In this document: piece by piece, positions 16,357 to 31,123 of the stretch
Numbering within the stretch: position 1 is the stretch's first letter
Layout of the letters: each line of letters opens with the position of its first letter
From: Halostella limicola
GTDB lineage: Archaea; Halobacteriota; Halobacteria; Halobacteriales; Natronoarchaeaceae
Assembly (NCBI RefSeq): GCF_003675875.1
Contig: NZ_RCDI01000004.1
Span: 310,001-374,000 of the forward strand
Direction: 5' to 3'
Length of the DNA stretch: 64,000 nt
Translations under genes and position numbers: made by a program
The notes under the pieces: model-generated
Database searches by the model: none
The model's input: the letters and a program-made list of their open reading frames with translations, nothing else
Told to the model about the DNA's origin: nothing

Positions 16357-16800
16357 ATGACACTCGACGTCGAGACGCCAGATCCGCCGTCGCTCAGCGG
16401 TGCACAGGACCCGGGGGACTACGACGCCGTCGACGAACCGGTGGACACCGGCGACGACTACCGTCGCGAGGCGCTGGCGGAGTTCCTGGAGAGCGGCGCC
16501 TGGGACGACGCCTTCGACGACTGGGCGGACCGCACGTACCTGACCGAGGCCGAGTTCCGGGCAGTCCTCGACGCGGACCTGATCGACGAACTGGACTTCT
16601 ACTGGAACCCGTCTGCCGAGGACGTGGGCTACCGAGCGCCGAGCGTGCCCGTCGATCTGCCGGCGACGCCCGACCTCGACAGGAGCGACGTCCGCGGCAT
16701 CGAGGAGGAACTGGACGACCTCGCCCGCACCGTGAGCGAGGTGCTCGAAAACGACTACATCCACCGCAGCAGCGAGGAGTTCGGCTACGACTGGGAGTGA
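16357..16800 (+). CDS. acidic hypothetical protein, 147 aa
   Basis: No family recognised with certainty. It is very rich in Asp and Glu (DVETPDPPSLSG, DAFDDWADRTYLTEAEFRAV) with a helical middle and a C-terminal coiled segment (IEEELDDLARTVSEVLENDY). No cysteines, signal peptide or membrane segment. Its last 16 bases overlap the end of the convergent phosphodiesterase gene. Composition and codon use match the neighbours, so it is probably a real cytoplasmic protein. Confidence 0.6.
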   Translation: MTLDVETPDPPSLSGAQDPGDYDAVDEPVDTGDDYRREALAEFLESGAWDDAFDDWADRTYLTEAEFRAVLDADLIDELDFYWNPSAEDVGYRAPSVPVDLPATPDLDRSDVRGIEEELDDLARTVSEVLENDYIHRSSEEFGYDWE

Positions 16801-18194
16801 GGCAGGGCCGCCGGGAGGACGGACTCCCGTTCGAACCCTCCGCCGACGTCGTCTCCGATCCCGAGCAGGTCCGCGACGGTCGGGGCGACCGACCGCACGT
16901 CGACTGTCTCGGGGAGCGACGCGTCGGGCGCGGCCGGTCCGCCCAGGCCGAACAGCGGGAGGGTATCCTTGTCGACGCGACCGTGGGACCCGCCGACCTT
17001 CGACGGGTCCAGCGACGCCAGTCCCGACTCCCCGACGAACAGCTCGCACGGATCGAACCCGGGTTTCGCGTGGATGTCCATGTCGGTCGCGTACGGCGGT
17101 CGCTCTCCGCCGTCGGGCCACCAGTAGTACTGGAACCAGGCGTCGCGCTCGGCGATCAGGACGAGGTCGCCAGCGTCCTCGTGGTCGACCGCCCGCGCTT
17201 GCTTGCCGTCGTCGTCGAGGATCTCGGCGATACCGGAGAGCGGTTCGAGGACGTCGCGGACCGCCGGCAGGACGCCGTCGTCGGCGTAGACGTGCGCGAC
17301 CTGGTGGTCGACCATGGCGAACGCCGCGGACTCCGCCAGGTCCACGTCGCCGTCGTCGGCCGTCGCGAGCAGGCCGGCCGCTCTGAGCGCTCGGTTCGGG
17401 AAGACGGGTGTGTCGACGTCGTGGAACCCGTACTCGCTGCAGACGGCGACCGCCGTCTCGTCCCAGCGGCCGTCCGTCCGGAGCGCGTCGAGGAACTCCT
17501 CGAACATGCCGTCGACGGTTTCGAGGGCCGCTTGCAGGACGTCCGATCCGGCCCCGTCGCGCAGGCCGGCGTAGTCGAGGTGGGGGACGTACACCCACAA
17601 CATGTCGGGGTCGTACCGCCGAACGCTCTCTCGGGCGGCGTCAAGGATCCACTCGGTGCTCTCCTCGTTCGCGCCCGGCCCCCAGTAGCGGTGCAGCGGG
17701 AAGTGGCCGAGCTCCTCCCGGAGGTCGTCGTAGAACCCGTCCGGGTTCGTCCAGCAGTTCATCTCGACCAGGTCGTTGTTCTCGTCCTCTATCGGCGACG
17801 GCGTCACGGCGACGTCGGCCGAGGTCCCGATCAGGTGCTGGAAGAAGAACGCACCGGTGGTCAGGTCCGTCTTCTCGGTCGCCGCCTCCCAGAGCCGGGT
17901 CCGCCCGTCGCGGTCACGCTCCCAGAAGGCCGCCTCGTCGGTCTCCCTGTCGTACTCGCCGCTCGCCACGTCGCCGTGGGTCCGCGGCGACCGGCCCGTC
18001 GCGATGGTCGTCTGCGCCGGGACCGTCAGCGCGGGGAACCGCGGGCGCAGGTCCGCGGCGGTCCCGTCGAGCAACTCGGCGAGGTTCGGCATCGATTCGA
18101 GGTGGTCCGCTCGCAGCCCCACGACGTCGAGGACCACGACGCGTTCCGCCTCGGCCGTTCCGTCGTCCGGGCCGCGATTCGATGGGGGAGTCAC
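16785..18194 (-). CDS. type I phosphodiesterase/nucleotide pyrophosphatase (EboF-like)
   Basis: A 469-residue alkaline-phosphatase-fold hydrolase. The first metal site is VLDVVGLRADHLESMPNL; the nucleophile region is PALTVPAQTTIATGRSPRTHG, with the Thr after PAQ as likely nucleophile; further ligands come from YVPHLDYAG, SEYGFHDV and the C-terminal GGSHGR. No signal peptide is seen, so it is probably cytoplasmic. It is divergent from a TatD-like/TIM-barrel/UbiA operon, and that set of families matches the bacterial Ebo operon, in which EboF is this type. The GTG at 18194 begins the conserved region; the longer ATG version is less likely. Confidence 0.8.
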   Translation of the reverse strand: MTPPSNRGPDDGTAEAERVVVLDVVGLRADHLESMPNLAELLDGTAADLRPRFPALTVPAQTTIATGRSPRTHGDVASGEYDRETDEAAFWERDRDGRTRLWEAATEKTDLTTGAFFFQHLIGTSADVAVTPSPIEDENNDLVEMNCWTNPDGFYDDLREELGHFPLHRYWGPGANEESTEWILDAARESVRRYDPDMLWVYVPHLDYAGLRDGAGSDVLQAALETVDGMFEEFLDALRTDGRWDETAVAVCSEYGFHDVDTPVFPNRALRAAGLLATADDGDVDLAESAAFAMVDHQVAHVYADDGVLPAVRDVLEPLSGIAEILDDDGKQARAVDHEDAGDLVLIAERDAWFQYYWWPDGGERPPYATDMDIHAKPGFDPCELFVGESGLASLDPSKVGGSHGRVDKDTLPLFGLGGPAAPDASLPETVDVRSVAPTVADLLGIGDDVGGGFERESVLPAALPHSQS

Positions 18195-18279
18195 GGTACC
18201 GTCTCGTCGTCCGCGTCGGATGTTTGTTATCCGACGTATACCCGCCCGGAGCGGCACGGTATGCGGTTCCTTACGAGGA

Positions 18280-18293
18280 TATCACATGTGATA
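18280..18293. promoter_or_regulatory. perfect 14-bp palindrome in the Ebo-like divergent promoter
   Basis: TATCACATGTGATA is its own reverse complement. It lies between the two divergent transcription units, just upstream of the TATA element TTATATT at 18299-18305 for the rightward operon, a fitting place for a dimeric regulator. Confidence 0.55.
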
Positions 18294-18342
18294 ACTGATT
18301 ATATTGGCTATAACAAAGGTCGGTCTCGTCGCCCCGTCGTCC

Positions 18343-19143
18343 ATGCGGATAATCGACCCCCACATGCACATGGTGTCGCGCTCCGCGGACGACTACGAGC
18401 GCGCCCGGCGGGCCGGCATCGAGTGCTGCATCGAACCGGCGTTCTGGAGCGGGACGGACAAGCGCCACGCGGAGTCGTTCTTCGACTACTTCGAGCACAT
18501 CATCGACTTCGAGACCGACCGCGCGGAGCGGACGGCCGGCGTCGACCACTACGCCACCATCGGACTGGAACCGAAGGAGGCGAACTACCCCGAGATGGCC
18601 GAGCGGGTCCTCGAACGCCTCCCGGAGTACCTCGACCGCGAGAACGTCGTCGGCGTCGGCGAGATCGGCCTCGACCAGGGGACCGAGGCCGAGGAGTGGG
18701 CGTTCCGCGAGCAGCTGCGGATGGCCGAGGAGCGGGAACTACCCGTCATCGTCCACACGCCGCACACCGACAAGCCCGAAGGCACCGAGCGTCTCGTCGA
18801 GATGATCCAGGAAGAGGACGTGACCGAGGAGCGGATCCTCATCGACCACAACACGGAGAACACGATCGACATCTCGCTCCGGACGGACTGCTGGATCGGC
18901 TTCACCCTGTACCCCGGCAAGATTCCCGCCGAGACAGCGATCGACCTGCTGGAGGAGTACGGCACGGACAAGATGATCTTCAACAGCGCCGCCGACTGGG
19001 ACCCCTCGGACCCGCTCGCGGTGCCGAAGGCGCGGGACCGGATGCTGGACAGGGGGTGGGACCGCGAGGAGGTGCGGAAGGTCGTCTTCGAGAACCCGTA
19101 CCGGTTCTTCGACCGCTCTCCGAACTTCGACTACGAGCCATGA
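18343..19143 (+). CDS. TatD-family metal-dependent hydrolase (EboB-like)
   Basis: A 266-residue amidohydrolase-fold protein. The metal motif HxH is DPHMHM (residues 5-10); VGEIGLDQGTEAEEWAF holds the bridging Glu; PVIVHTPH and ILIDHNTEN hold further His ligands; the closing Asp is in NSAADWDPSD. TatD proteins are usually DNases or related hydrolases, but those in Ebo operons act on an unidentified metabolite. Start ATG 18343 is preferred because the barrel begins at once (MRIIDPH). It overlaps the next gene by four bases. Confidence 0.85.
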   Translation: MRIIDPHMHMVSRSADDYERARRAGIECCIEPAFWSGTDKRHAESFFDYFEHIIDFETDRAERTAGVDHYATIGLEPKEANYPEMAERVLERLPEYLDRENVVGVGEIGLDQGTEAEEWAFREQLRMAEERELPVIVHTPHTDKPEGTERLVEMIQEEDVTEERILIDHNTENTIDISLRTDCWIGFTLYPGKIPAETAIDLLEEYGTDKMIFNSAADWDPSDPLAVPKARDRMLDRGWDREEVRKVVFENPYRFFDRSPNFDYEP

Positions 19144-19970
19144 AGTTCGGCTTCTCCACCAACGCCTTCCGGGAGTACGACCTCGACGAGACGATCGAGG
19201 TCCTCGCCGACGCGGGGTACGACGGCGTCGAACTCCTGCTCGACGAACCGCACCTCTACGCCTCCGAGGCCGACGAGGAGTCGATCGGGGCGGTCGAAGA
19301 CGCGCTCGATCGGCACGGCCTCGCCGTCAGCAACTGCAACGCGTTCATGCTGACTGCGATCGAGAGCATCCACCGGCCCTCGTTTATCGAGCCCGGAACG
19401 TCGTACCGACGCCGCCGGATCGAGTATACGCTCGACGCGCTCGACGTCGCAGCCGCGCTCGACGTGCCGCACGTCTCCATCGAGCCCGGCGGACCGATCC
19501 CGGAGGACAAGTCCCGCGAGTGGGCGATGGAGACGTTCCTCGACGGCCTCCGCGAGGTCGCCGCGAAGGCTGAGTCCGTCGGCGTCGACGTGCTGGTCGA
19601 ACCCGAACCGGACCTGCTGATAGAGACGCCCGAGCAGTTCCTCGACCTCGTCGAGCGCGTCGACTCGCCGCGGGTCAAGTGCAACTTCGACGCCGGGCAC
19701 TTCTTCTGCGTCGGCGAGGACCCCGCGGAGCTGGTCGAGATGCTCGGTGAGTACTCCCCCCACTACCACATCGAGGACATCCCCGCCGACCGGACGCACG
19801 AGCACACGCAGCTCGGCGACGGCGCGATGGACGTCGACGGCTTCCTGACCGCGCTCGACGACAGCGGCTACGACGGGTTCGTCACCGTGGAACTGTACCC
19901 CTACCAGGAGACCGCCGCGGAGACGGCGCGCGGGGCGATGCGGTTCCTCGAAGAGCGCGGGTGGGCGTAG
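19140..19970 (+). CDS. sugar-phosphate isomerase/epimerase TIM barrel (EboE-like)
   Basis: A 276-residue AP-endonuclease-2-type barrel. Conserved metal residues appear in order: Glu in DGVELLLDEPH, Glu in VLVEPEPDLL, Asp-His in CNFDAGHFFCV, His in YHIEDIPADRTHEH, and Glu in VTVELYPYQ. Its ATG overlaps the TatD-like gene (ATGA) and its stop is followed directly by the UbiA ATG, so the three are co-translated. The EPEPDLLIETPEQFLDL segment is as in EboE proteins. A paralogue lies at 22612. Confidence 0.85.
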   Translation: MKFGFSTNAFREYDLDETIEVLADAGYDGVELLLDEPHLYASEADEESIGAVEDALDRHGLAVSNCNAFMLTAIESIHRPSFIEPGTSYRRRRIEYTLDALDVAAALDVPHVSIEPGGPIPEDKSREWAMETFLDGLREVAAKAESVGVDVLVEPEPDLLIETPEQFLDLVERVDSPRVKCNFDAGHFFCVGEDPAELVEMLGEYSPHYHIEDIPADRTHEHTQLGDGAMDVDGFLTALDDSGYDGFVTVELYPYQETAAETARGAMRFLEERGWA

Positions 19971-20888
19971 ATGGGCGGGGCGGCGACCGCGAGGCGGCGA
20001 CCGTCGCTGTCCGCGGTCGCCGCGCTCGTCCGGGTACCGAACCTCTTCACCGCGCCGCCAGACGTGATCCTCGGCGCGGCGCTCGCGGCGGGAGCGGGAT
20101 CCGGGGTGGCGCCGCGGACCGTCGCGGGGCTCGCGCTCGCATCAGTGTTCCTCTACGCTGGCGGCACGGCGCTGAACGACGCGTTCGACGCCCTGCGGGA
20201 CGCCGACGAACGACCCGAGCGACCGATCCCGTCTGGAGAGATCTCCCGTCGGACGGGTTTCGAACTCGGCGCGCTGTTTCTGGTTCTCGGCGTCGCGACG
20301 GCCGGCGCGTCGGCGGGCCTCGCGGGCGGGACGATCGCGGCGGCGACCGCCGCAGGGATCCTCCTCTACGACGGCGCACTGAACGGCGGGACGTTCGGCT
20401 TTCTCGCCATGGGCGCCGTTCGCGGTCTGAACGTCGTTCTCGGGACCGCGGCCGGCGAGGGGCTGCTCCCGCCTCGGTGGTACCTCCCCGTTGTTGCAAT
20501 CGCGGTGTATATCGCAGCCGTGACCTTCATGGCCGCGGACGAGGCCCGCGACGGGAACCGTTCGGCGGTCGCGGTCGCCGCGGTGGCCACCATCGCTGCC
20601 GCGCTCACCGCTGGCGTTCATCTCGGTCTCGCGCGCGCCGGTCCAGCGGCGGCCGCCGTCGGACTCGGTCTCGCCGGCTGGTTCCTGATCAGGACCGGCG
20701 CTGCCCTCCGCGCCGCTTACGCCGACCCGTCTCCGTCGACCGTCGGACCCGCCGTGGGGACGTGCGTCCTCGGCCTCGTTGCGGTAGACGCCGCCTACGC
20801 CGCCGCGTCGGGCCTCGTGTGGGCCGGGGCGGCGGTCGCCTTTCTGGTCCCAGCCGTCTGGCTCGCACGCCTGTTCGACGTGTCATAG
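19971..20888 (+). CDS. UbiA-family prenyltransferase (EboC-like)
   Basis: A 305-residue membrane protein with about eight to nine segments. The first aspartate-rich motif is LNDAFDALRDADERPERP, matching the NDxxDxxxD consensus that binds Mg2+-prenyl diphosphate, followed by IPSGEIS. The second motif is weak (AADEARDGN near residue 185). It would transfer a prenyl chain to a small acceptor at the membrane. Immediate contact with the TIM-barrel gene and the presence of TatD-like and phosphodiesterase genes point to an Ebo-type pathway rather than haem or quinone synthesis. Confidence 0.88.
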   Translation: MGGAATARRRPSLSAVAALVRVPNLFTAPPDVILGAALAAGAGSGVAPRTVAGLALASVFLYAGGTALNDAFDALRDADERPERPIPSGEISRRTGFELGALFLVLGVATAGASAGLAGGTIAAATAAGILLYDGALNGGTFGFLAMGAVRGLNVVLGTAAGEGLLPPRWYLPVVAIAVYIAAVTFMAADEARDGNRSAVAVAAVATIAAALTAGVHLGLARAGPAAAAVGLGLAGWFLIRTGAALRAAYADPSPSTVGPAVGTCVLGLVAVDAAYAAASGLVWAGAAVAFLVPAVWLARLFDVS

Positions 20889-21143: not shown

Positions 21144-22391
21144 TCAGAGGACTGACTGCGCCAGTCCGAGGAAGATGAAGAATCCGAGAACGTCCGTTGC
21201 GGTCGTGATGAAGATCGTCGCCGAGGTAGCCGGGTCCTTCCCGATCTTGTCCAGGATGAGGGGGATGGCCGTTCCGAAGAAGCCGGCGATGATGAGGCTC
21301 AACACCATCGACACCCCGAGAACGAGCCCCAGAAGCGGACTCCGGTTGAACACCGAGGCGATGATCGCGACGAGCACGCCGGTGATGGCCCCGTTGGCGG
21401 CGCCGGCGATCACCTCGTTTATCACGGCGCGGCCGCCGGTCGACAGTGATATTTGGCCGAACGCCAGCCCGCGAACCGTGACGGCCATCGACTGGGTGCC
21501 CGCGTTCCCGCCCATCCCGGCGACAACCGGCATGTACACCGCGAGCAGCGTGAACGCCGCGATGGTGTCCTCGAAGAAACCGACCGCCCCCGCGGCGAGA
21601 AACGCCGTCCCGAGATTGATGATGAGCCACTTGTACCGGTTTCGAACCTTCGAGAGCGGCCCGTCGAGGACGCTCTCTTCCTCCTGCACGCCCGTGAACT
21701 CGTACAGCGTCTCGCCGGCTTCCTCCTCGATGACCCGGAGGAGGTCCTCGGCGTAGATGACGCCGAGGATGCTGCCGTCGCCGTCCAGCACCGCGACGGA
21801 GCTCTCCGGGTTCTCCCGGAACACGTCGACGACGTCCGTGTCGGCGCTGTCGTACGCGACCGTCGGGGTCTCGTGGACGTGTTCGCGGAGGTCGATCTGC
21901 CCCTCGTCAGTCAGCGCCAGCGTCTGTCCGGGCAGTTCGCCCAGGAGGTCGTCTCCCTCGGTGACGAAGATGGTCGGAAACCTGTCGGTCCGGTCCTCGT
22001 GACGCTGCACGCGCCGCGCGACCTCCTCCACGCTCCGGTCGACGCCGACGGTGACGTAGTCCAAGTGCATCAGCCCGGCCGCGCTCTCGGGACTGAACTG
22101 GAGGAGAAACTCCACTTTCTCCTGGCGGTCCTCGTCGAGCCGCTGTAACACCTCGTCCCGCGTGGTCTCGTCCGCCAGCACGAGCGCGTCGGCTACCTCG
22201 TCCGGGTCGAGCCGACGAACGAAGTTCAGGAGCTCCTCCCGATCCATGTCCGCGACGAGCGACTCCCGAACCGATTCGGGTAACTGAAAGAAGACCTCTC
22301 GTTGCCGCCCTCGCGAGAGCTCGACGAACTCCGCAGCCGGCGTCGGCGACGTGGCGATATCTCGCTGCGCGTCGGCCAACTGGTCGGCCAT
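21144..22391 (-). CDS. mgtE: magnesium transporter MgtE
   Basis: A 415-residue Mg2+ channel with the complete layout: MgtE_N helical domain (residues 1-125; PESVRESLVADMDREELLNF), two CBS domains (about 128-250; LDYVTVGVDRSVEEV, IYAEDLLRVIEE), the plug helix (NRYKWLIINLGTAF) and five membrane segments with the pore signature MPVVAGMGGNAGTQSM. It stands alone with no Mg-responsive leader that I can see. Confidence 0.93.
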   Translation of the reverse strand: MADQLADAQRDIATSPTPAAEFVELSRGRQREVFFQLPESVRESLVADMDREELLNFVRRLDPDEVADALVLADETTRDEVLQRLDEDRQEKVEFLLQFSPESAAGLMHLDYVTVGVDRSVEEVARRVQRHEDRTDRFPTIFVTEGDDLLGELPGQTLALTDEGQIDLREHVHETPTVAYDSADTDVVDVFRENPESSVAVLDGDGSILGVIYAEDLLRVIEEEAGETLYEFTGVQEEESVLDGPLSKVRNRYKWLIINLGTAFLAAGAVGFFEDTIAAFTLLAVYMPVVAGMGGNAGTQSMAVTVRGLAFGQISLSTGGRAVINEVIAGAANGAITGVLVAIIASVFNRSPLLGLVLGVSMVLSLIIAGFFGTAIPLILDKIGKDPATSATIFITTATDVLGFFIFLGLAQSVL

Positions 22392-22611: not shown

Positions 22612-23469
22612 ATGTCTTCGAGCGTAGATCTGGCGTTCTCGACGAACGCCTACACCGAGTACGACCTCGACGAGGCGGTCAGACGGGTCGCTGCGTACGG
22701 GTACGACGGCGTCGAACTGCTCTGCGACGCGCCCCACGCCTACTTTCCCTCGTTCGAGACGGAGGACCGACGTGCCCTCGTCGACGCGCTCGACGAGACG
22801 GGGATCGCCGTGTCCAACGTCAACGCCAACACGGCGATGGGGTACTACGACGACGCGCCGCCCTCGGCCTTCTTCGACCCGAGCATCGTCACGGCCGACG
22901 AGGAGGACCGACGGTGGCGCGTCGAGTACACGAAACGCGCGATCGACCTCGCCGAGCGCGTCGACTCGCCGGCCGTCAGCGTCGCGACCGGTCGCCCCCT
23001 TCCCGGGACCCCGCCGGCGGAGGCGCACGAGTACCTCCGCGAGTCGCTCCGCGAGATCCTCGACTACGCCGAACCGAGGGGCGTCGACGTGGGGATCGAG
23101 TTCGAACCGGGGTTGCTCGTCGGCTGTACCGACGAGGCGCTCGACCTGATCGACGACCTCGGGCGCTCCTCGCTGGGGATCAACCTGGACCTGGGACACG
23201 CCGCAGTCGATGGGGAGAACCTCGCCGAGACGATCCGCCGCTCCGCCCGGCACATCACCGGCCTCCACGTCGAGGACATTCCCGGCGGCCGCGGGGGCAA
23301 GCACTACCACCTCGTCCCGGGCGACGGGGACCTCGACTTCCCCGCCGTCTTCGACGCGCTCGCCGCGGTCGGGTACGACGGTTTCGCCACCGTGGAACTG
23401 TACACCTACCCCGACGAACCGGACGCCGCCGCGAGACGCGCTCACGAAACGCTCTCGGAGTACGCATGA
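22612..23469 (+). CDS. sugar-phosphate isomerase/epimerase TIM barrel, second copy
   Basis: A 285-residue barrel clearly related to the EboE-like protein at 19140: both begin FSTNA-(F/Y)-(R/T)-EYDLDE and keep the DGVELL, LGH, HVEDIPGGRGGKH and TVELYTY segments. Metal ligands are therefore preserved. The two genes are 2.6 kb apart with mgtE between them, which suggests duplication followed by change of context. It overlaps a tiny zinc protein by four bases. Confidence 0.85.
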   Translation: MSSSVDLAFSTNAYTEYDLDEAVRRVAAYGYDGVELLCDAPHAYFPSFETEDRRALVDALDETGIAVSNVNANTAMGYYDDAPPSAFFDPSIVTADEEDRRWRVEYTKRAIDLAERVDSPAVSVATGRPLPGTPPAEAHEYLRESLREILDYAEPRGVDVGIEFEPGLLVGCTDEALDLIDDLGRSSLGINLDLGHAAVDGENLAETIRRSARHITGLHVEDIPGGRGGKHYHLVPGDGDLDFPAVFDALAAVGYDGFATVELYTYPDEPDAAARRAHETLSEYA

Positions 23470-24148: not shown

Positions 24149-25246
24149 TCACCAAGAGGTGATCGTAACGTCGCGTAGCGGGCGATCGAGCGGTATCGAC
24201 ACGTCGCCGCCCGTGTAGTGCGAGACGTAGAAGCCGACGATGATCTCCAGGGAGCGCGCCGCCGCACGTCCGGGCGAGTGGTTCGTCGCGTCGCCGTTCA
24301 GGAGGTCGACGACGTGGCTCGCCGCGTTCGCGAACGACCCCTCGTAGTCGTCTTCCCACATCCACGCGTCCTCGATGCCGGGGATCGGCTGCTCGACGTG
24401 CTCGCCGTCCTCCAGCGACCAGTAGCGCCACTCGCCGTCGTCGTTGTTCATGTACAGTTTCCCCTCGCTGCCGACGAACGAGAGCGACATCGACGACGAC
24501 GCCCGCGGTATCGTGCAGTCGATCGTCGCGAACGTCCCGTCGTCCATCAGCACGTACCCGCCGCCCGCCGAGTCGTCGACCTCGTCGGCGGCGTCCAGCG
24601 AGTCGACCGCCTCGTTCTCGCCCGAGACGTAGCCGGAGACGCGGTCAGCGCGCGCGTCGAGGAGGTAGACCAGCGTGTCGAGGAGGTGCGTCGAGTTCCG
24701 GAGCAGTTCCATTCGGAACTGCGTCGACACGGAGTGAACCTCGCCGAGCAGGTCGTCGTCGCGGACCAGTTCGTGGAGGCGCCGTAGCTTGTCCGTGAAC
24801 CTGAACGAGTGGTTGACGACGAGTTCCGCGCCGGCGTCGTCGCACGCCTCGATCATCTCCTCGGCGTCGGAGACCGAAGAGGCGATCGGCTTCTCGCACC
24901 AGATGACGTCGGGGTCGGCGGCGGAGCGCGCCGCGTCGACGACGTGGTCGCGGTGGAGGTACGAGGGCGTGCAGACGGAGACGACGTCGAGGTCCTCCTC
25001 GGCCAGCATCGCCTCGTGCCCGACGTAGCGCCGGTCGGACGGTATCTCCCAGGCCTCGCCGAACTTCCGGAGGTTCTCCCGGTCGACGTCGGCGACGGCG
25101 ACGAGTTCGACATCTGTCGCGTCGTCGTAGCCGCCCGCGTGGCTTGCCCGGATCTTCTCCTCGCCGATCGCTTCCTCGTCGTGCATTCCGAGGATCCCCA
25201 TACCGGCGATCCCGCCGGTACCGACGATCCCAGCTCGGTAGCTCAT
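24149..25246 (-). CDS. Gfo/Idh/MocA-family oxidoreductase
   Basis: A 365-residue NAD(P)-dependent sugar or cyclitol dehydrogenase. The N-terminal Rossmann motif is [29 protein letters not shown] holds the catalytic Lys of the EKP motif; the second domain begins at [13 protein letters not shown], and [14 protein letters not shown] has the conserved HLLDTL pattern. The acidic first domain fits inositol-, glucose-fructose- or glycoside-dehydrogenase types, but the substrate cannot be fixed. It diverges from the FAH-family gene. Confidence 0.88.
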
Positions 25247-25487
25247 TGTGAACGTCTACCTCTCTTGCGGCGCGCATTATAACGGTTGTGTCTCCGCCGA
25301 TCCGCCACCGATTAGAGGTCGTCGCGGTCCCGAAACGTCGGTCGGCACTACCCAACGTCGCCCGGTCGATGGATACGGGAACTGCTCGAGGAGGGATGCC
25401 GTTTCGGTGTTCGACTCGCGCGCCCCGCGACCCGGGGAAGTCGCCACCATCCGAATACTTTTGACGGTCGGTCGGGATCGGACACGT

Positions 25488-26219
25488 ATGCGACGAGTTA
25501 GATTCCGCGATGCAGCAGGTAGCGTTCGGAACGGTGTCTGGTCCGACGACGGCATCGAGTTCGGCGAGCGAACGTACGACCCCGAGTCGGTCGACGTGCT
25601 CCCACCGACGGAGCCGAGCAAGATCGTCTGTGTCGGCCTCAACTACGCCGACCACGCGGAGGAGGAGGGGATGGAACTCCCCGACCGCCCGATGCTGTTC
25701 CTGAAGCCGCCGAACGCGGTGTCCGGCCATCGGGACGAGATCCCCCTGCCGGCCGGGAAGGAGACGGTCGAGTACGAGGCCGAACTCGGCGTCGTCATCG
25801 GGCAACAGTGCCGAAACGTGTCCGAGGACGAGGCGATGTCGGTCGTCGACGGGTTCACCTGTCTCAACGACGTCTCCAACCGCGACGACCAGCGGGTGGA
25901 GCAGAACTGGGTCCGGGGGAAAGCGTTCGACAACGCCGCGCCGACCGGCCCAGTTGTCGCGACGCCGGACGAGGTGCCCGACGACGCCAGCGTCGAACTG
26001 CGCGTCAACGGCGAACTCCGTCAGGAGTCAAGCCGGGAGGAGTTCATCTTCTCGGTCGAGGAACTGATCGCCGAGATCACTTCGTACATGACGCTCGAAC
26101 CGGGCGACGTCATCTCGACGGGAACTCCCGCCGGCGTCGGTCCCCTGTCCGACGGCGACACGGTAGAGGTGGAGGTCGAGGGCGTCGGCGTTCTGCGAAA
26201 CGAGTTCACGGCCCCGTAG
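25488..26219 (+). CDS. fumarylacetoacetate hydrolase (FAH)-family protein
   Basis: A 243-residue C-C hydrolase/decarboxylase or isomerase. The core is [18 protein letters not shown], then [10 protein letters not shown] and the metal-binding Glu pair in [12 protein letters not shown], an Asp in [13 protein letters not shown], and the closing [11 protein letters not shown]. Members act on acylpyruvates, 2-keto-3-deoxy or diketo sugar acids. Within this catabolic island a 2,4-diketo-3-deoxy-aldonate hydrolase role is plausible (inference). The ATG at 25488 is set by the TATA-like ATACTTTTGA about 30 bases upstream. Confidence 0.88.
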
Positions 26220-26320
26220 GCCGTCGCGGTCTGGGTCTTTTCTCGCCCGGCCGGTCTTCGCGGTCCGCCGGTGACGCGCTACTCCAGTAAGCATTTAACC
26301 CGAACCGACGGATCGGAGGC

Positions 26321-27004
26321 ATGGAACGGGAACGCCGACGCTCCTTCGTAGCGGGCGCTGCGGACGTCGGGCCGATACTGCTCGGGATCCTGCCGTTCGC
26401 GCTGATAGCCGGGGTCGCCGCGGTCGAAGCCGGGATGACCGGGATCCAGGCCGTCGCGATGTCCGTGTTCGTCTTCGCCGGGGCGTCGCAGCTCGCCGCG
26501 ATCGAACTGATCGAACAGAACGCCCACGCTCTGGTGATCGTCGGTACCGTCGCGGCGATCAACCTCCGCTTGGTGATGTACAGCGCCTCTATCGCGCCGT
26601 ATTTACGATCCGTATCAGGACGAGAACGGCTGACCCTCGCGTACTTCCTCACCGACCAGGTGTACGCGGTGTCCGTCACGCGCTTCGAGGGCGAGGAGGG
26701 GACCAGCCGCGTCTGGTACTTCCTCGGCGCAGGTCTCCCCCTCTGGGTCGTGTGGGTAGCTGGAACGTGGATCGGCGTCGTCCTGGGAGCGGGGATCCCG
26801 GACGGCCTCTCCCTGGACTTCGCGGTTCCGCTGACGTTCATCGCCCTGCTCGTCCCGAACCTGTCGGATCGGCCGTCGGTGATCGCCGCCGCTGCTGCGT
26901 CGATCGCCGCCGTGGCGGGCGCCGGACTGCCGTACAATCTGGGACTGATCGTCGGTGCCGTCGCCGGCGTCGCGACCGGCGTCGTCGCGGGGGCGGTAGA
27001 GTGA
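26321..27004 (+). CDS. azlC: AzlC-family branched-chain amino acid exporter, large subunit
   Basis: A 227-residue membrane protein with the AzlC pattern: LGILPFALIAGVAAVEAG in the first segment, FAGASQLAAIELIE in the second and LVMYSASIAPYLR after the third; about six to seven segments in all. With AzlD it exports amino acids such as branched-chain ones. It overlaps the azlD GTG start by four bases. Confidence 0.9.
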   Translation: MERERRRSFVAGAADVGPILLGILPFALIAGVAAVEAGMTGIQAVAMSVFVFAGASQLAAIELIEQNAHALVIVGTVAAINLRLVMYSASIAPYLRSVSGRERLTLAYFLTDQVYAVSVTRFEGEEGTSRVWYFLGAGLPLWVVWVAGTWIGVVLGAGIPDGLSLDFAVPLTFIALLVPNLSDRPSVIAAAAASIAAVAGAGLPYNLGLIVGAVAGVATGVVAGAVE

Positions 27005-27333
27005 CCGACATCGCCCCCGTCACGCTGTGGGCCGTCCTCGTCGCCGCCGGTCTCTGCACGTACCTCCTCCGCCTATCGTTTCTGGCCGTGTTCGGGCGGA
27101 TCGACGAGTTACCCGAGCGCGCCTCGGCCGCGCTGGGGTACGTTCCCCCGGCGGTGCTTGCGGCCTTGGTCGCACCATCGCTGGCGTACGCCGACGGGGC
27201 GGTCGCGCTGACGCCGGGGAACGAGCGACTGATCGCCGGCGGCGTCGCGATCGCCGTCGCATGGAAGGTCGAAAGCGTTCTGGCGACGATCGCCGGCGGG
27301 CTCGTTACCCTCTGGATCCTCCAGTCGCTGTAG
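27001..27333 (+). CDS. azlD: AzlD-family subunit
   Basis: A 110-residue protein with four hydrophobic segments and the AzlD motif CTYLLRLSFLAVFG followed by ALGYVPPAVLAALVAPSL. Translation starts at GTG within the end of azlC (GTGA overlap), which fixes the start. It is the small partner of the exporter. Confidence 0.88.
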   Translation: MTDIAPVTLWAVLVAAGLCTYLLRLSFLAVFGRIDELPERASAALGYVPPAVLAALVAPSLAYADGAVALTPGNERLIAGGVAIAVAWKVESVLATIAGGLVTLWILQSL

Positions 27334-27736
27334 CCTCGGATACGCCGCGCTCTTCGTTCTCGCCACCTCTCGCGGACGAGCGTTCGCTCCGTCGCTCGCG
27401 ACGCGGTCCGACGAACGAAAACCGTTATTCCAGTCGTCCACCTATTTTGAACGTTGCTTCTCCCAGATGCGGCCTGGATTGTGATTCGATCTCGCGCATC
27501 AATCACTATCTTTTCAGTGAGATGGCGACACCGCCATCGTATTACAGAAATATGGATGTAAAGACAGGGGCCGAAACATAGCTTCTGTTCCTTCTTCGGC
27601 CGTCCAATGATACTGAACCGAATTTCGAGGTGGTACCGCGAAACGATCGCCGGATCACTGAGTACGGGCCTCTCGGTTACCCGCTAGTTCCTGAGCCGTT
27701 TGTGCCCACGCACGAAGAAGAAACGAACCGACGGCC
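27334..27736. other. 403-base gap, no gene seen
   Basis: AT content rises towards the middle (around 27440-27560). One weak hairpin (GCCGAA at 27570-27575 with TTCGGC at 27595-27600) is the only structure seen. It separates two convergent genes. Confidence 0.4.
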
Positions 27737-28837
27737 TCACTCGACCCTGTACTCGTCCGCGTCGGCGAAGGAGACGCCGTGTCCCGGACGGTCGGGCGGC
27801 ACGATCTCTCCGTCGTCCACTCCGACCGGATCTTGGAGGAGTTCGTCCAGCACCGTCGAGTGGTGCTCGATGTAGGGGACGGCGTCGGACGCGCAGGCGA
27901 GGTGGGCGTGGATCGGCTCGATGTAGTGGGGTGACACGGCGAGACCGGCCGCGGACGCCTGCTCCGCGACGGTCATCCACGGGGTTATCCCGCCGACGCG
28001 ACAGACGTCGGGCTGGAGGTAGTCGACGGCGTTCCCGTCGATCACCTGCCCGAACTGCGTCTCGTTGTAGAAGTTCTCGCCCGTGGCGATGGGTACGTCG
28101 ACGCGCTGTCGAAGGTCGGCGTACGACGCGTAGTCGCCCTTGAGCAGAGGCTCTTCGAGCCACGTGATGGGAACGTCGTCGATGCGGTTGGCGAACGCCC
28201 GGGCTTCGGGCACCGTGTACGAGCAGTTGGCGTCGAGCATCAGGTCCAGATCCGCCGGGAGCGCGTCGCGAACGGCGCGGACGCGCTCGGCGTCGCGCTC
28301 GATGGACGAGCCGACCTTCATCTTCATGCCGGCGAACCCCTCGTCGGCGATCGACTCCGCGTTCTCGACCAGCTGGTCGGCGTCGTACTGGAGCCATCCG
28401 CCGTCGGTCTCGTACATCGTCACCGGCTCCCTCGTCCCACCGAGCAGCTCGCACAGCGGCAGACCGGCGCGCTTGCCGAGCAGGTCCCACATCGCGATGT
28501 CGACCGCCGCGACTGCGAACTCGCTTATCCCTTCCCGGCCGATGAACGTCGTCTCCCCGCGCAGGGTCGACCGGACAGACCGCGGCGCGACCGGCAGTCC
28601 GTCCAGCAACGGAACGATCTCGTCGTCGAGAAACCGCTTGACCGCCGCTCCGCCGCGGCCGATGGTGTACGTGAACCCGAGCCCCCGGTGACCGTCGTCG
28701 GACTCCGCGACGACGGCGACGATTTCGAGGGTGTCGAACGACTGAGTAGCGTCCTCCAGAGCCTGCTCGTTGGGTACTCGGTAGAGTTCGGTGTCGACGG
28801 ACCGGACGGTCCCGGCGCTCGTTGCTGTGTCGCTCAT
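27737..28837 (-). CDS. mandelate racemase/muconate lactonising enzyme-family dehydratase or racemase
   Basis: A 366-residue enolase-superfamily enzyme. The capping domain covers about residues 15-130; the barrel holds the Lys-x-Lys base (GMKMKVGSS), metal ligands Asp in LMLDANCSY, Glu in WLEEPL, Glu in ATGENFY, and the partner His in SPHYIEPIHAHL. The Lys-x-Lys/His pair fits acid-sugar dehydratases or mandelate-type racemases. Its own TATA box lies within an inverted repeat in the 72-base gap after the Lut gene. Confidence 0.88.
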   Translation of the reverse strand: MSDTATSAGTVRSVDTELYRVPNEQALEDATQSFDTLEIVAVVAESDDGHRGLGFTYTIGRGGAAVKRFLDDEIVPLLDGLPVAPRSVRSTLRGETTFIGREGISEFAVAAVDIAMWDLLGKRAGLPLCELLGGTREPVTMYETDGGWLQYDADQLVENAESIADEGFAGMKMKVGSSIERDAERVRAVRDALPADLDLMLDANCSYTVPEARAFANRIDDVPITWLEEPLLKGDYASYADLRQRVDVPIATGENFYNETQFGQVIDGNAVDYLQPDVCRVGGITPWMTVAEQASAAGLAVSPHYIEPIHAHLACASDAVPYIEHHSTVLDELLQDPVGVDDGEIVPPDRPGHGVSFADADEYRVE

Positions 28838-28859
28838 CTCTCGTTCGGGGATCGGACCC

Positions 28860-28890
28860 CGGGTATAAATCAGTTTACCCGTGATACCCG
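28860..28890 (-). promoter_or_regulatory. TATA box flanked by 7-bp inverted arms
   Basis: CGGGTAT (28860-28866) and ATACCCG (28884-28890) are perfect inverted arms; TATAAAT (28864-28870) overlaps the first arm and is 27-33 bases before the start codon at 28837. A regulator bound here would cover the TATA box. Confidence 0.5.
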
Positions 28891-28909
28891 GCCGCGAGAG
28901 GGGTGGCCG

Positions 28910-31123
28910 TCACCGCCTCACGGGGTCGAGGAGTTCGACCGGGTGGCGCGTTCCGGGGGCCAGCAGCGAGTCGAGCTGCTCCATGCACGACGTGCCGCTG
29001 GCGACGACTGTCCGCTCGTCGGCGGCTGGCTCGAACTGGTCGACGAGCGACTGCCCGACGTCCACGCTCAGGTCGTAGTACTCGCTCTTGTAGCCGAAGC
29101 TCCCGGCCATCCCGCAGCACTCGACGTCCGAGGTGAGCACGTCGTACCCTAGCCGCTCGAGGACTATCTTCGTATACTCCTCCAGCCCGAGCGTGCGCTG
29201 CTGGCAGTGGCTGTGGTAGGCGACGCCGTCCCCTTCGCCGCCCGGCAGGGCATCAAGCTCAGCACCGTTCTCCAACAGCCCGTAGACGAACTCCATGACC
29301 TCGTAACTCCCCTCGGCGATCCGTTCGTGGGTCTCCGCGGGGAGCAGCTTCTCGTACTCCCGCTGGAACATCGCGAGGTCGCTGGGCTCGACGACGACCA
29401 CGTCGTATCCCGCGTCGAGGTACGGCAGGAGCGACTCCGCCACACCTTCCGCTTTCTCCTCGGCCGTCGCGATCATCCCCTGCGACAGCGGCGCGCGGCC
29501 CGACCCGCCGGCGTCGGGGACGACGACCTCGCAACCGAGCGCCTCCAGCACGCGGACGGCGGCTTTCCCCCGCTCTGTCTGCACGTAGTTCGTGTACAGG
29601 TCCGGGTACAGCGCGACGCGTCGCATCGGGTCCTCGACGGCAGTGTCGCGGGCCTGCGCCCAGTCGCGCAGCGTGGTCCGCTCGAACTCGGGCAGGTCCC
29701 GCCGGGCGTCGATCCCGAGGACCGACTCCATCGCCGTCCTCGCCGCGCCGGTGCCGGCCACCGCGTTCGAGACGGGGGCCGTCGCGCTGCCCAGCTTCGC
29801 GACGGTTTCGAAGTTCCCGAAGAACCGCTTGCGCAGCGGCGTCCCGCTCTCCTCCTCGTCTGGGACCAGCCCGTCGACGAGGAGGTCGTCGAACCCGGGG
29901 TCCTTCCCGCGGTTGATGCGGTCCCGGACGACCGTGTTGATCCACGGGATGTCGATCTTCACCGGACAGGCGTTGACGCACCGCGAGCAGCCGGTACAGA
30001 GGTCGTTGAACTCCTCTGCCACGTCGAGGCCCTCGATCCCGGCCTCCCAGCCGGTGGCGATGCCGCCGGTGTACGTTTCGCCGCCGAAGGCGTGGCCGCC
30101 GACCGACTGGAAGTTCGCACAGGAGTTCGCGCAGGCGCCACACCGGATGCAGTACAGCGTCTCGCGGAGCTCGTCGTCCTGCCGCATCGCCCGCCGTCCG
30201 TTGTCGATGAGTACGAGGTGGAAGTCCCGTTCGGCGTCGCCACCCCCAAAGGCCGGCTCGTCTTCCCGGTCGAAGTCGATCGTCGGCGTGTCGACTGGCG
30301 GCGTGAGCAGCGACAGGTACTGCGGGATGTCCTGTCCGGTCGCCGACCGCGAGATGAGCTCCGCGAACGGCTCCAGCTCGGCGACAGAGGGGATTATCTT
30401 CTCGATGCCGGCGACCGCGACGTGGGTGTCGGGGATCGACGCGCACTTGCGCGCGTTGCCCTCGTTGGTCACCAGCGCGATGGAGCCGCTCTCGGCCATG
30501 ACGAAGTTCGCGCCCGTGATGCCGACGTCGGCGTCGTCGATCCGCTCGCCGAGGTACTCCCTCGCGAACGCGGTCAGCTTCTGCGCGGAGTCGAGCGACT
30601 CGTCCGGGTCGAACTCCCGCTCGAACAGCTCCGTTATCTCCTCGCGGGACTTGTGGAGCGAGGGACCGACGATGTGCGACGGCGCCTCCTCCGCGACCTG
30701 GATGACGAACTCCCCGAGGTCGGTCTCCCAGACGTCGACGTCGTTGGCCTCCAGCGCCTCGTTCAGGTCGATCTCCTCGGTCGTCATCGACTTCGACTTC
30801 ACCACGCTGTCGGCGCCCTCGTCGTCGAGCACCTCCGAGACGTACCGGTTCGCGTCGGCGGCGTCGTCCGCGACGTACACCGTCCCGCCGTTGGCCTCGA
30901 CGGCTGATCGGGTCTGATGAATGAGCTCCGGAAGCCGTTCGATCGCGTCCTCCTTGATCTCCCGCGCCCGGTCGCGGTACCCCTCGTGGGCCTCCGCCCC
31001 GACGGCCTCGACCGCGTCGTACCGTTCGGCGTTGAACAGGCGCGTGTTCTCCTTTATCTCGGCACTCTCCGTCTCGAGCAGCGTGCGGATGCGGTCGGCA
31101 TCCAGTTTCGTTGATTCACTCAT
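28910..31123 (-). CDS. fused lactate-utilisation iron-sulfur protein (LutB-LutA type)
   Basis: A 737-residue fusion. Residues 1-300 are a LUD domain (LutB type, TTEEIDLNEALEANDVDVWE; GITGANFVMAESGSIALVTN). Residues 320-390 hold two ferredoxin clusters, CIRCGACANSCANF and CTGCSRCVNACPVK. From about residue 500 a LutA/GlpC-like CCG region follows. Its second motif (HCQQ ... DVECCGMAGSFGYK ... SGTSC) is intact, but the first is GSGRAPLSQG where CCGRP would be expected. The complex should pass electrons from lactate oxidation to the chain. Its start overlaps the end of the LutC-like gene by eight bases. Confidence 0.88.
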   Translation of the reverse strand: MSESTKLDADRIRTLLETESAEIKENTRLFNAERYDAVEAVGAEAHEGYRDRAREIKEDAIERLPELIHQTRSAVEANGGTVYVADDAADANRYVSEVLDDEGADSVVKSKSMTTEEIDLNEALEANDVDVWETDLGEFVIQVAEEAPSHIVGPSLHKSREEITELFEREFDPDESLDSAQKLTAFAREYLGERIDDADVGITGANFVMAESGSIALVTNEGNARKCASIPDTHVAVAGIEKIIPSVAELEPFAELISRSATGQDIPQYLSLLTPPVDTPTIDFDREDEPAFGGGDAERDFHLVLIDNGRRAMRQDDELRETLYCIRCGACANSCANFQSVGGHAFGGETYTGGIATGWEAGIEGLDVAEEFNDLCTGCSRCVNACPVKIDIPWINTVVRDRINRGKDPGFDDLLVDGLVPDEEESGTPLRKRFFGNFETVAKLGSATAPVSNAVAGTGAARTAMESVLGIDARRDLPEFERTTLRDWAQARDTAVEDPMRRVALYPDLYTNYVQTERGKAAVRVLEALGCEVVVPDAGGSGRAPLSQGMIATAEEKAEGVAESLLPYLDAGYDVVVVEPSDLAMFQREYEKLLPAETHERIAEGSYEVMEFVYGLLENGAELDALPGGEGDGVAYHSHCQQRTLGLEEYTKIVLERLGYDVLTSDVECCGMAGSFGYKSEYYDLSVDVGQSLVDQFEPAADERTVVASGTSCMEQLDSLLAPGTRHPVELLDPVRR

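Follow-up and report, generated by a model that had tools for sequence, protein, structure and literature searches.

The window analysed here, a stretch of 64,000 nucleotides from the haloarchaeon Halostella limicola (contig NZ_RCDI01000004.1, positions 310,001 to 374,000), carries a small gene cluster related to the ebo cluster. The ebo cluster is widespread, has been transferred into algal plastids, and is essential both to the export of scytonemin and, in Pseudomonas, to resistance against nematodes. An earlier note on this DNA described four gene families at the locus, a phosphodiesterase, a TatD-like hydrolase, a TIM barrel and a UbiA prenyltransferase, and equated them with EboF, EboB, EboE and EboC. 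Domain matches to all four families are found (Table 1), and the coordinates agree with the description of three overlapping or touching plus-strand genes and a divergent phosphodiesterase gene. More specifically, EboB and the TIM barrel gene (TIM1) overlap by an ATGA at 19140-19143 and UbiA directly abuts TIM1. The likely start of EboF is a GTG at 18194, which gives a minus-strand coding sequence of 16785-18194. A fifth gene, TIM2, was overlooked in the note; it is a cluster member in nearly all relatives. In the window an inverted mgtE is the sole gene separating TIM2 from UbiA, and it is absent from that place in the relatives examined.

Table 1. Features of the ebo-related locus; positions are those of the window.
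Feature	Position	Strand	Domain match or remark
EboF-type phosphodiesterase (alkaline-phosphatase superfamily)	16785..18257	-	PF01663, 161 bits
Perfect 14-bp palindrome TATCACATGTGATA	18280..18293		divergent intergenic region between EboF and EboB
EboB, TatD-like metal-dependent hydrolase	18343..19143	+	PF01026
TIM1, xylose-isomerase-like TIM barrel	19140..19970	+	PF01261, 158 bits
EboC-type UbiA prenyltransferase homologue	19971..20888	+	PF01040; NF035940 EboC profile
MgtE-type Mg transporter	21144..22391	-	between UbiA and TIM2
TIM2, second xylose-isomerase-like TIM barrel	22612..23469	+	clade, metal site, identity to relatives

The perfect palindrome noticed earlier between the divergent genes is present as well. 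As a conserved operator it was rejected, being absent from all 32 other haloarchaeal divergent gaps and from every other distinct locus examined. By base-composition arithmetic several 14-bp palindromes would be expected per 64 kb at the G+C content of the window, so the palindrome is weak evidence of anything. Downstream of TIM2 (24149-31123) lie genes for a Gfo/Idh oxidoreductase, an FAA hydrolase, a mandelate-racemase-like protein and LUD/iron-sulfur proteins. This part of the window resembles a sugar-acid catabolic region, and several relatives also have an FAA hydrolase gene after TIM2.

Aligned over its full length, the window EboB has 42-45% identity to EboB proteins from annotated bacterial ebo clusters; with the haloarchaeal copies the identity is 79-86%. 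Its best plasmid matches outside archaea are mostly in ebo clusters. Its closest solved relative is AF_1765 of Archaeoglobus fulgidus (PDB 3guw, E 8e-31), an uncharacterised archaeal protein. The window phosphodiesterase reaches 339 bits with a profile built only from bacterial EboF, and the next-best PF01663 paralogue tested from the same genome reaches 35 bits. In the alignment SEYG replaces the SDHG of other family members, and this replacement is common to the window, bacterial and thaumarchaeal EboF. EboB, EboF and the EboC-type UbiA share ancestry with the bacterial ebo families. Other Halobacteriota often have distantly EboB-like proteins, without ebo neighbours in the short flanks examined. 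The EboB-like proteins of methanogens (about 160-180 bits) were considered as further archaeal ebo and set aside, as the short flanks examined contain no UbiA or TIM gene.

Regarding the prenyltransferase, the window UbiA scores 188 bits with the NF035940 EboC profile, 153 bits with SCO3242 and 48 bits with DGGGP synthase; the range for lipid-type UbiA is 48-58 bits. In a quick tree, with SH-aLRT support only, the ebo-linked UbiA proteins of all phyla stand together, apart from the genome's own other UbiA proteins. The outgroups of this tree (the DGGGP synthase and the MenA-, CtaB- and lycopene-elongase-like proteins of the same genome) have long branches, and their names beyond family membership are our reading of their sequences. 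NDxxDxxxD is retained and the loop with the second DxxxD is missing in all ebo-linked UbiA proteins aligned, the window copy included. The earlier note had asked whether UbiA belongs with EboC or with quinone and lipid UbiA; profile, tree and shared loop loss group it with the ebo-linked proteins. As a PF01040 member it could in principle be a lipid or quinone prenyltransferase (DGGGP synthase, MenA, haem O) with incidental neighbours, but this is extremely improbable in view of these three observations, of the five other UbiA proteins in the same genome and of the 254 of 292 Halobacteria that do without this UbiA.

The equation of the TIM barrel with EboE did not hold. In the tree EboE forms a clade of its own with a support of 100, far from TIM1 and TIM2, and the EboE profile gives 19-23 bits on TIM1 and TIM2 against a cut-off of 250. 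Of the four identities proposed earlier, those of EboF, EboB and UbiA stand and that of EboE falls. TIM2 is about 40% identical to TIM1 and 63-75% identical to the gene adjoining UbiA in relatives, with which it shares the TIM2 clade; both proteins retain the E/D/H/E metal-site residues in the alignment. TIM1 matches the IolI-like 1i60, and TIM2 matches MJ1311, IolI and TM_0416. Sequence relatives of the two are inosose isomerase IolI, 5-keto-gluconate epimerase TM_0416 and tagatose epimerases. TIM1 is an archaeal clade, and the extra TIM of actinobacterial clusters (TIMact) forms a clade separate from TIM1 and TIM2. Scores with sugar isomerase and epimerase families, together with the Gfo/Idh, FAA hydrolase and mandelate-racemase genes nearby, could point to an ordinary sugar-catabolic operon of common families that is unrelated to ebo. 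This is highly unlikely. UbiA and EboB are reciprocally present in 38 of 292 genomes, EboB and EboF match ebo proteins much better than generic families, and such an operon has no place for an intramembrane prenyltransferase.

The 38 Halobacteria genomes with UbiA and those with EboB are exactly the same ones (17 of 77 genera), and the two genes are collinear. The ebo genes are linked and inherited together, and the joint recurrence in archaea that the earlier note wanted checked is found. In nearly all of these genomes EboF and a gene for myo-inositol-1-phosphate synthase (MIPS) are divergent from collinear EboB-TIM1-UbiA-TIM2, with MIPS usually between EboF and EboB. Of the 38 cluster genomes 37 have the dedicated MIPS, and just a single genome outside them has it. 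It has both Pfam domains of the enzyme, and its closest solved relative is the A. fulgidus MIPS (PDB 1u1i, E 6e-90), a kind of gene that the window genome does not have. The idea of a reduced archaeal form needs to be divided: the archaeal form is a six-gene set of its own (EboF, MIPS, EboB, TIM1, UbiA, TIM2), with MIPS and TIM2 taking the position of EboD, and what is reduced is the window copy, which has lost MIPS. Two unusual MIPS genes were seen. One, of the ebo type, is in a haloarchaeon without cluster EboB or UbiA (L176; G208, contig C1:2810759-2811955). The other is a second ebo-type copy in another genome; it is apparently broken, in three pieces, and a second copy of EboB lies nearby (G272, contig C12:438681-439814).

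Canonical eboABCDEF is known from Bacteroidetes, cyanobacteria, proteobacteria and eustigmatophyte plastids (PMC5133447, PMC6282210), and some ebo operons have EboG instead of EboA, or neither (PMC5133447). The haloarchaeal set resembles it in the tight linkage of EboB, EboC-type UbiA and EboF and in a patchy, apparently mobile distribution. It differs in having no EboA, EboD or EboE, in its MIPS (missing in the window genome) and two IolI-like TIM barrels, and in the divergent transcription of EboF. In the archaeal set MIPS and the TIM barrels occupy the place of EboD, EboE and EboA.

With EboB as the seed, a search of genome contigs collected 80 loci across many phyla. The comparison covered 91 clusters that have both UbiA and EboF: none of the 32 with EboD has a linked MIPS, TIM2 or TIMact, and none of the 56 with TIM2 or TIMact has EboD. 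For non-haloarchaeal clusters the exclusion of EboD against MIPS, TIM2 and TIMact gives a Fisher p of 3e-13, a value calculated over related, non-independent clusters with a few duplicate loci. The clusters of Azospirillum, Mycetohabitans and Aureibacter have EboD and no MIPS. Clusters with neither EboD nor an adjacent MIPS have MIPS elsewhere in the genome, except in Haloarcula. In the tree the ebo-type MIPS proteins form a clade distinct from the mycothiol-type enzyme, and three non-actinobacterial bacteria, as well as most Streptomyces and Lentzea examined, have one copy that belongs to it; the unlinked thaumarchaeal MIPS is of another (housekeeping) type. If a MIPS-type cluster is one with ebo-type MIPS and without EboD, 37 of the 38 haloarchaea and most actinobacterial clusters are of this type, and the window genome lacks the MIPS.

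Actinobacterial clusters of the SCO3242 type (Streptomyces L074, L080) resemble the haloarchaeal ones: an ebo-type MIPS replaces EboD, there is an additional TIM of the sugar-isomerase kind, and EboB, EboF and an EboC/SCO3242-like UbiA are present. They differ in having EboA and EboE, a TIM of a separate clade, a single operon and another gene order; a Streptomyces plasmid cluster reads MIPS, SCO3242 UbiA, TIM, EboA, EboB, EboE, EboF. In the ammonia-oxidising archaea Nitrosarchaeum, Nitrosopelagicus and Nitrososphaerales (L089, L115, L116) the order is EboB-TIM1-UbiA-EboF, with TIM2 also in the first two. These clusters, too, are without EboA, EboD and EboE, but they lie on a single strand and their housekeeping MIPS is unlinked. 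The MIPS-type ebo variant is shared among haloarchaea, a related set is present in Thaumarchaeota, and the window copy has lost its MIPS. Gammaproteobacterial UbiA proteins paired with MIPS and TIM2 (L097, L103) nest among the EboD-associated ones (SH-aLRT 99), and this is the best evidence that the EboD set and the MIPS and TIM2 set serve the same prenyltransferase.

Several neighbours and relatives were observed in addition. A metagenome-assembled deltaproteobacterial genome (L086) has an EboB 55% identical to the haloarchaeal protein, together with MIPS, TIM2 and UbiA. It is the closest non-haloarchaeal relative seen, and its lineage is a possible donor. Genes for glucose/sorbosone dehydrogenase-like proteins (PF07995) adjoin the ebo clusters of several haloarchaea and of some bacteria (L041, L042, L045, L051, L064, L068, L069, L083; L117, L119, L127); in one haloarchaeal protein a copper-binding domain is found in addition. 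A ScyD/ScyE-family gene adjoins the Streptomyces cluster L080.

Our results suggest that the window cluster is the haloarchaeal branch of the ebo family in its MIPS-type variant, with a putative prenylated cyclitol as product and with the cyclitol step lost or outsourced in this organism; we put the probability of this reading at about 0.6. The product of MIPS-type ebo clusters is probably a prenylated, inositol-derived membrane compound. The earlier note had proposed a precursor different from that of the EboD product, and inositol phosphate is plausible in this role. In such a pathway MIPS would convert glucose 6-phosphate into inositol phosphate. Its dephosphorylation, isomerisation or other tailoring would fall to EboF, EboB and the two TIM barrels, both metal-dependent, and the resulting cyclitol would be the counterpart of what EboD makes. 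An isoprenoid (probably geranylgeranyl in haloarchaea) would then be attached to this cyclitol by the intramembrane UbiA, and the prenylated cyclitol so formed would be anchored in the membrane. In Nostoc all five ebo genes tested by deletion are needed to move the scytonemin monomer to the periplasm (PMC6282210), and by analogy the prenylated cyclitol may act as, or carry, something needed outside the cytoplasm. The window organism would have to obtain the cyclitol by scavenging or by a different synthesis, unless the pathway is decaying. A wider proposal is that ebo clusters across bacteria and two archaeal phyla make one compound class, a prenylated cyclitol, either from EboD or, by non-orthologous replacement, from MIPS and an IolI-like isomerase, with inositol as the precursor. 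We regard it as tentative and give it slightly less than even odds.

Several points weigh against a prenylated cyclitol from a MIPS-type pathway. The score of the window UbiA is below the curated NCBIfam EboC cut-off of 250 bits, and the loss of its second Asp motif leaves the donor chemistry open. Ubi-297 from Maribacter, the one EboC that has been tested, is likewise a UbiA encoded in an ebo cluster and transfers farnesyl in vitro, but it is of the EboD-type lineage and was tested on aromatic and quinoline acceptors. It farnesylated quinoline carboxylates, and no cyclitol substrates are reported in the parts of that work available to us (PMC9235831). The cluster counts given above are phylogenetically non-independent and come from an EboB-seeded search. 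Finally, there is the missing synthase. Protein and Pfam searches found no MIPS in the window genome, the sole exception among the 38 cluster genomes, and Haloarcula pellucida (L085, 6388-11475) is a second haloarchaeal ebo cluster with no MIPS in locus or genome. Its flanks were searched for a compensating gene without success: they hold topoisomerase VI genes, which flank a number of other haloarchaeal clusters too, a lactamase-fold protein and a DNA ligase. One clade of the window and H. pellucida copies, which would mean a shared single loss of MIPS, is not rejected (p-AU 0.143).

The window was said to contain neither EboA nor EboD, and the same is true of the whole genome by protein and profile searches, on which the absence of MIPS rests as well. 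No EboD (PF01761 sugar-phosphate cyclase) was found by a search that was positive in 11 of 14 control genomes. EboA has no match in the window genome or in 12 other archaeal genomes; the same search found it in four of five bacterial genomes with ebo clusters, the exception being a Lentisphaerota cluster that itself has no EboA.

It could be argued from the loss of MIPS, of which no remnant is left at the locus (the best tblastn match, E 0.045, lies elsewhere), that the window copy no longer makes the original product and that the enzymes left to it are in decay or have taken on a different substrate. The position of MgtE between UbiA and TIM2, the second MIPS-less case in H. pellucida and the lack of the cluster in the rest of the genus and family sampled would fit this explanation. 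We consider it quite unlikely, as all five remaining genes are intact, are roughly 50-88% identical to relatives and retain the metal-site and NDxxDxxxD residues. Moreover, the two MIPS-less genomes retain the whole rest of the set, which suggests that the MIPS step can be bypassed.

Another explanation concerns the role of the product. UbiA might move a phosphorylated cyclitol onto a polyprenyl phosphate, by analogy with the DPPR synthase Rv3806c, a UbiA-fold phosphoribosyltransferase that uses decaprenyl phosphate (PMC10994848), and the ebo product would then be a lipid carrier for the export of another molecule. A secreted-type glucose/sorbosone dehydrogenase or copper protein adjoins several haloarchaeal clusters, but export genes are not consistently linked and DPPR synthase profiles score far below EboC (the window UbiA has no match at E 0.01 and a haloarchaeal relative reaches 18.7 bits). 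The carrier role is a possibility that we consider somewhat unlikely.

An isoprenoid-cyclitol product from EboD was posited in the original ebo paper (PMC5133447). It notes TIM-EboA fusions in actinobacteria, regards the lack of EboD from some operons simply as probable loss, and says nothing of inositol; nor does any other ebo paper in the literature searched. In the literature searched, with most subscription papers outside it, no paper joins ebo terms with inositol-3-phosphate synthase, and novelty is provisional to that extent. NCBI annotation names a SCO3242-family prenyltransferase and EboA domains in actinobacterial loci, so this variant has in part already come to the notice of curators.

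The ebo family is extended here to haloarchaea and ammonia-oxidising archaea, which is not reported in accessible published surveys. Exchange of EboD for MIPS, a synthase of well-known chemistry, narrows the precursor to inositol phosphate and offers organisms and labelled substrates for finding the product, with the window genome as a natural MIPS-minus case. If the wider proposal of one compound class is true, the precursor can be read from the archaeal and actinobacterial versions as inositol, and the long-unknown ebo product becomes directly testable.

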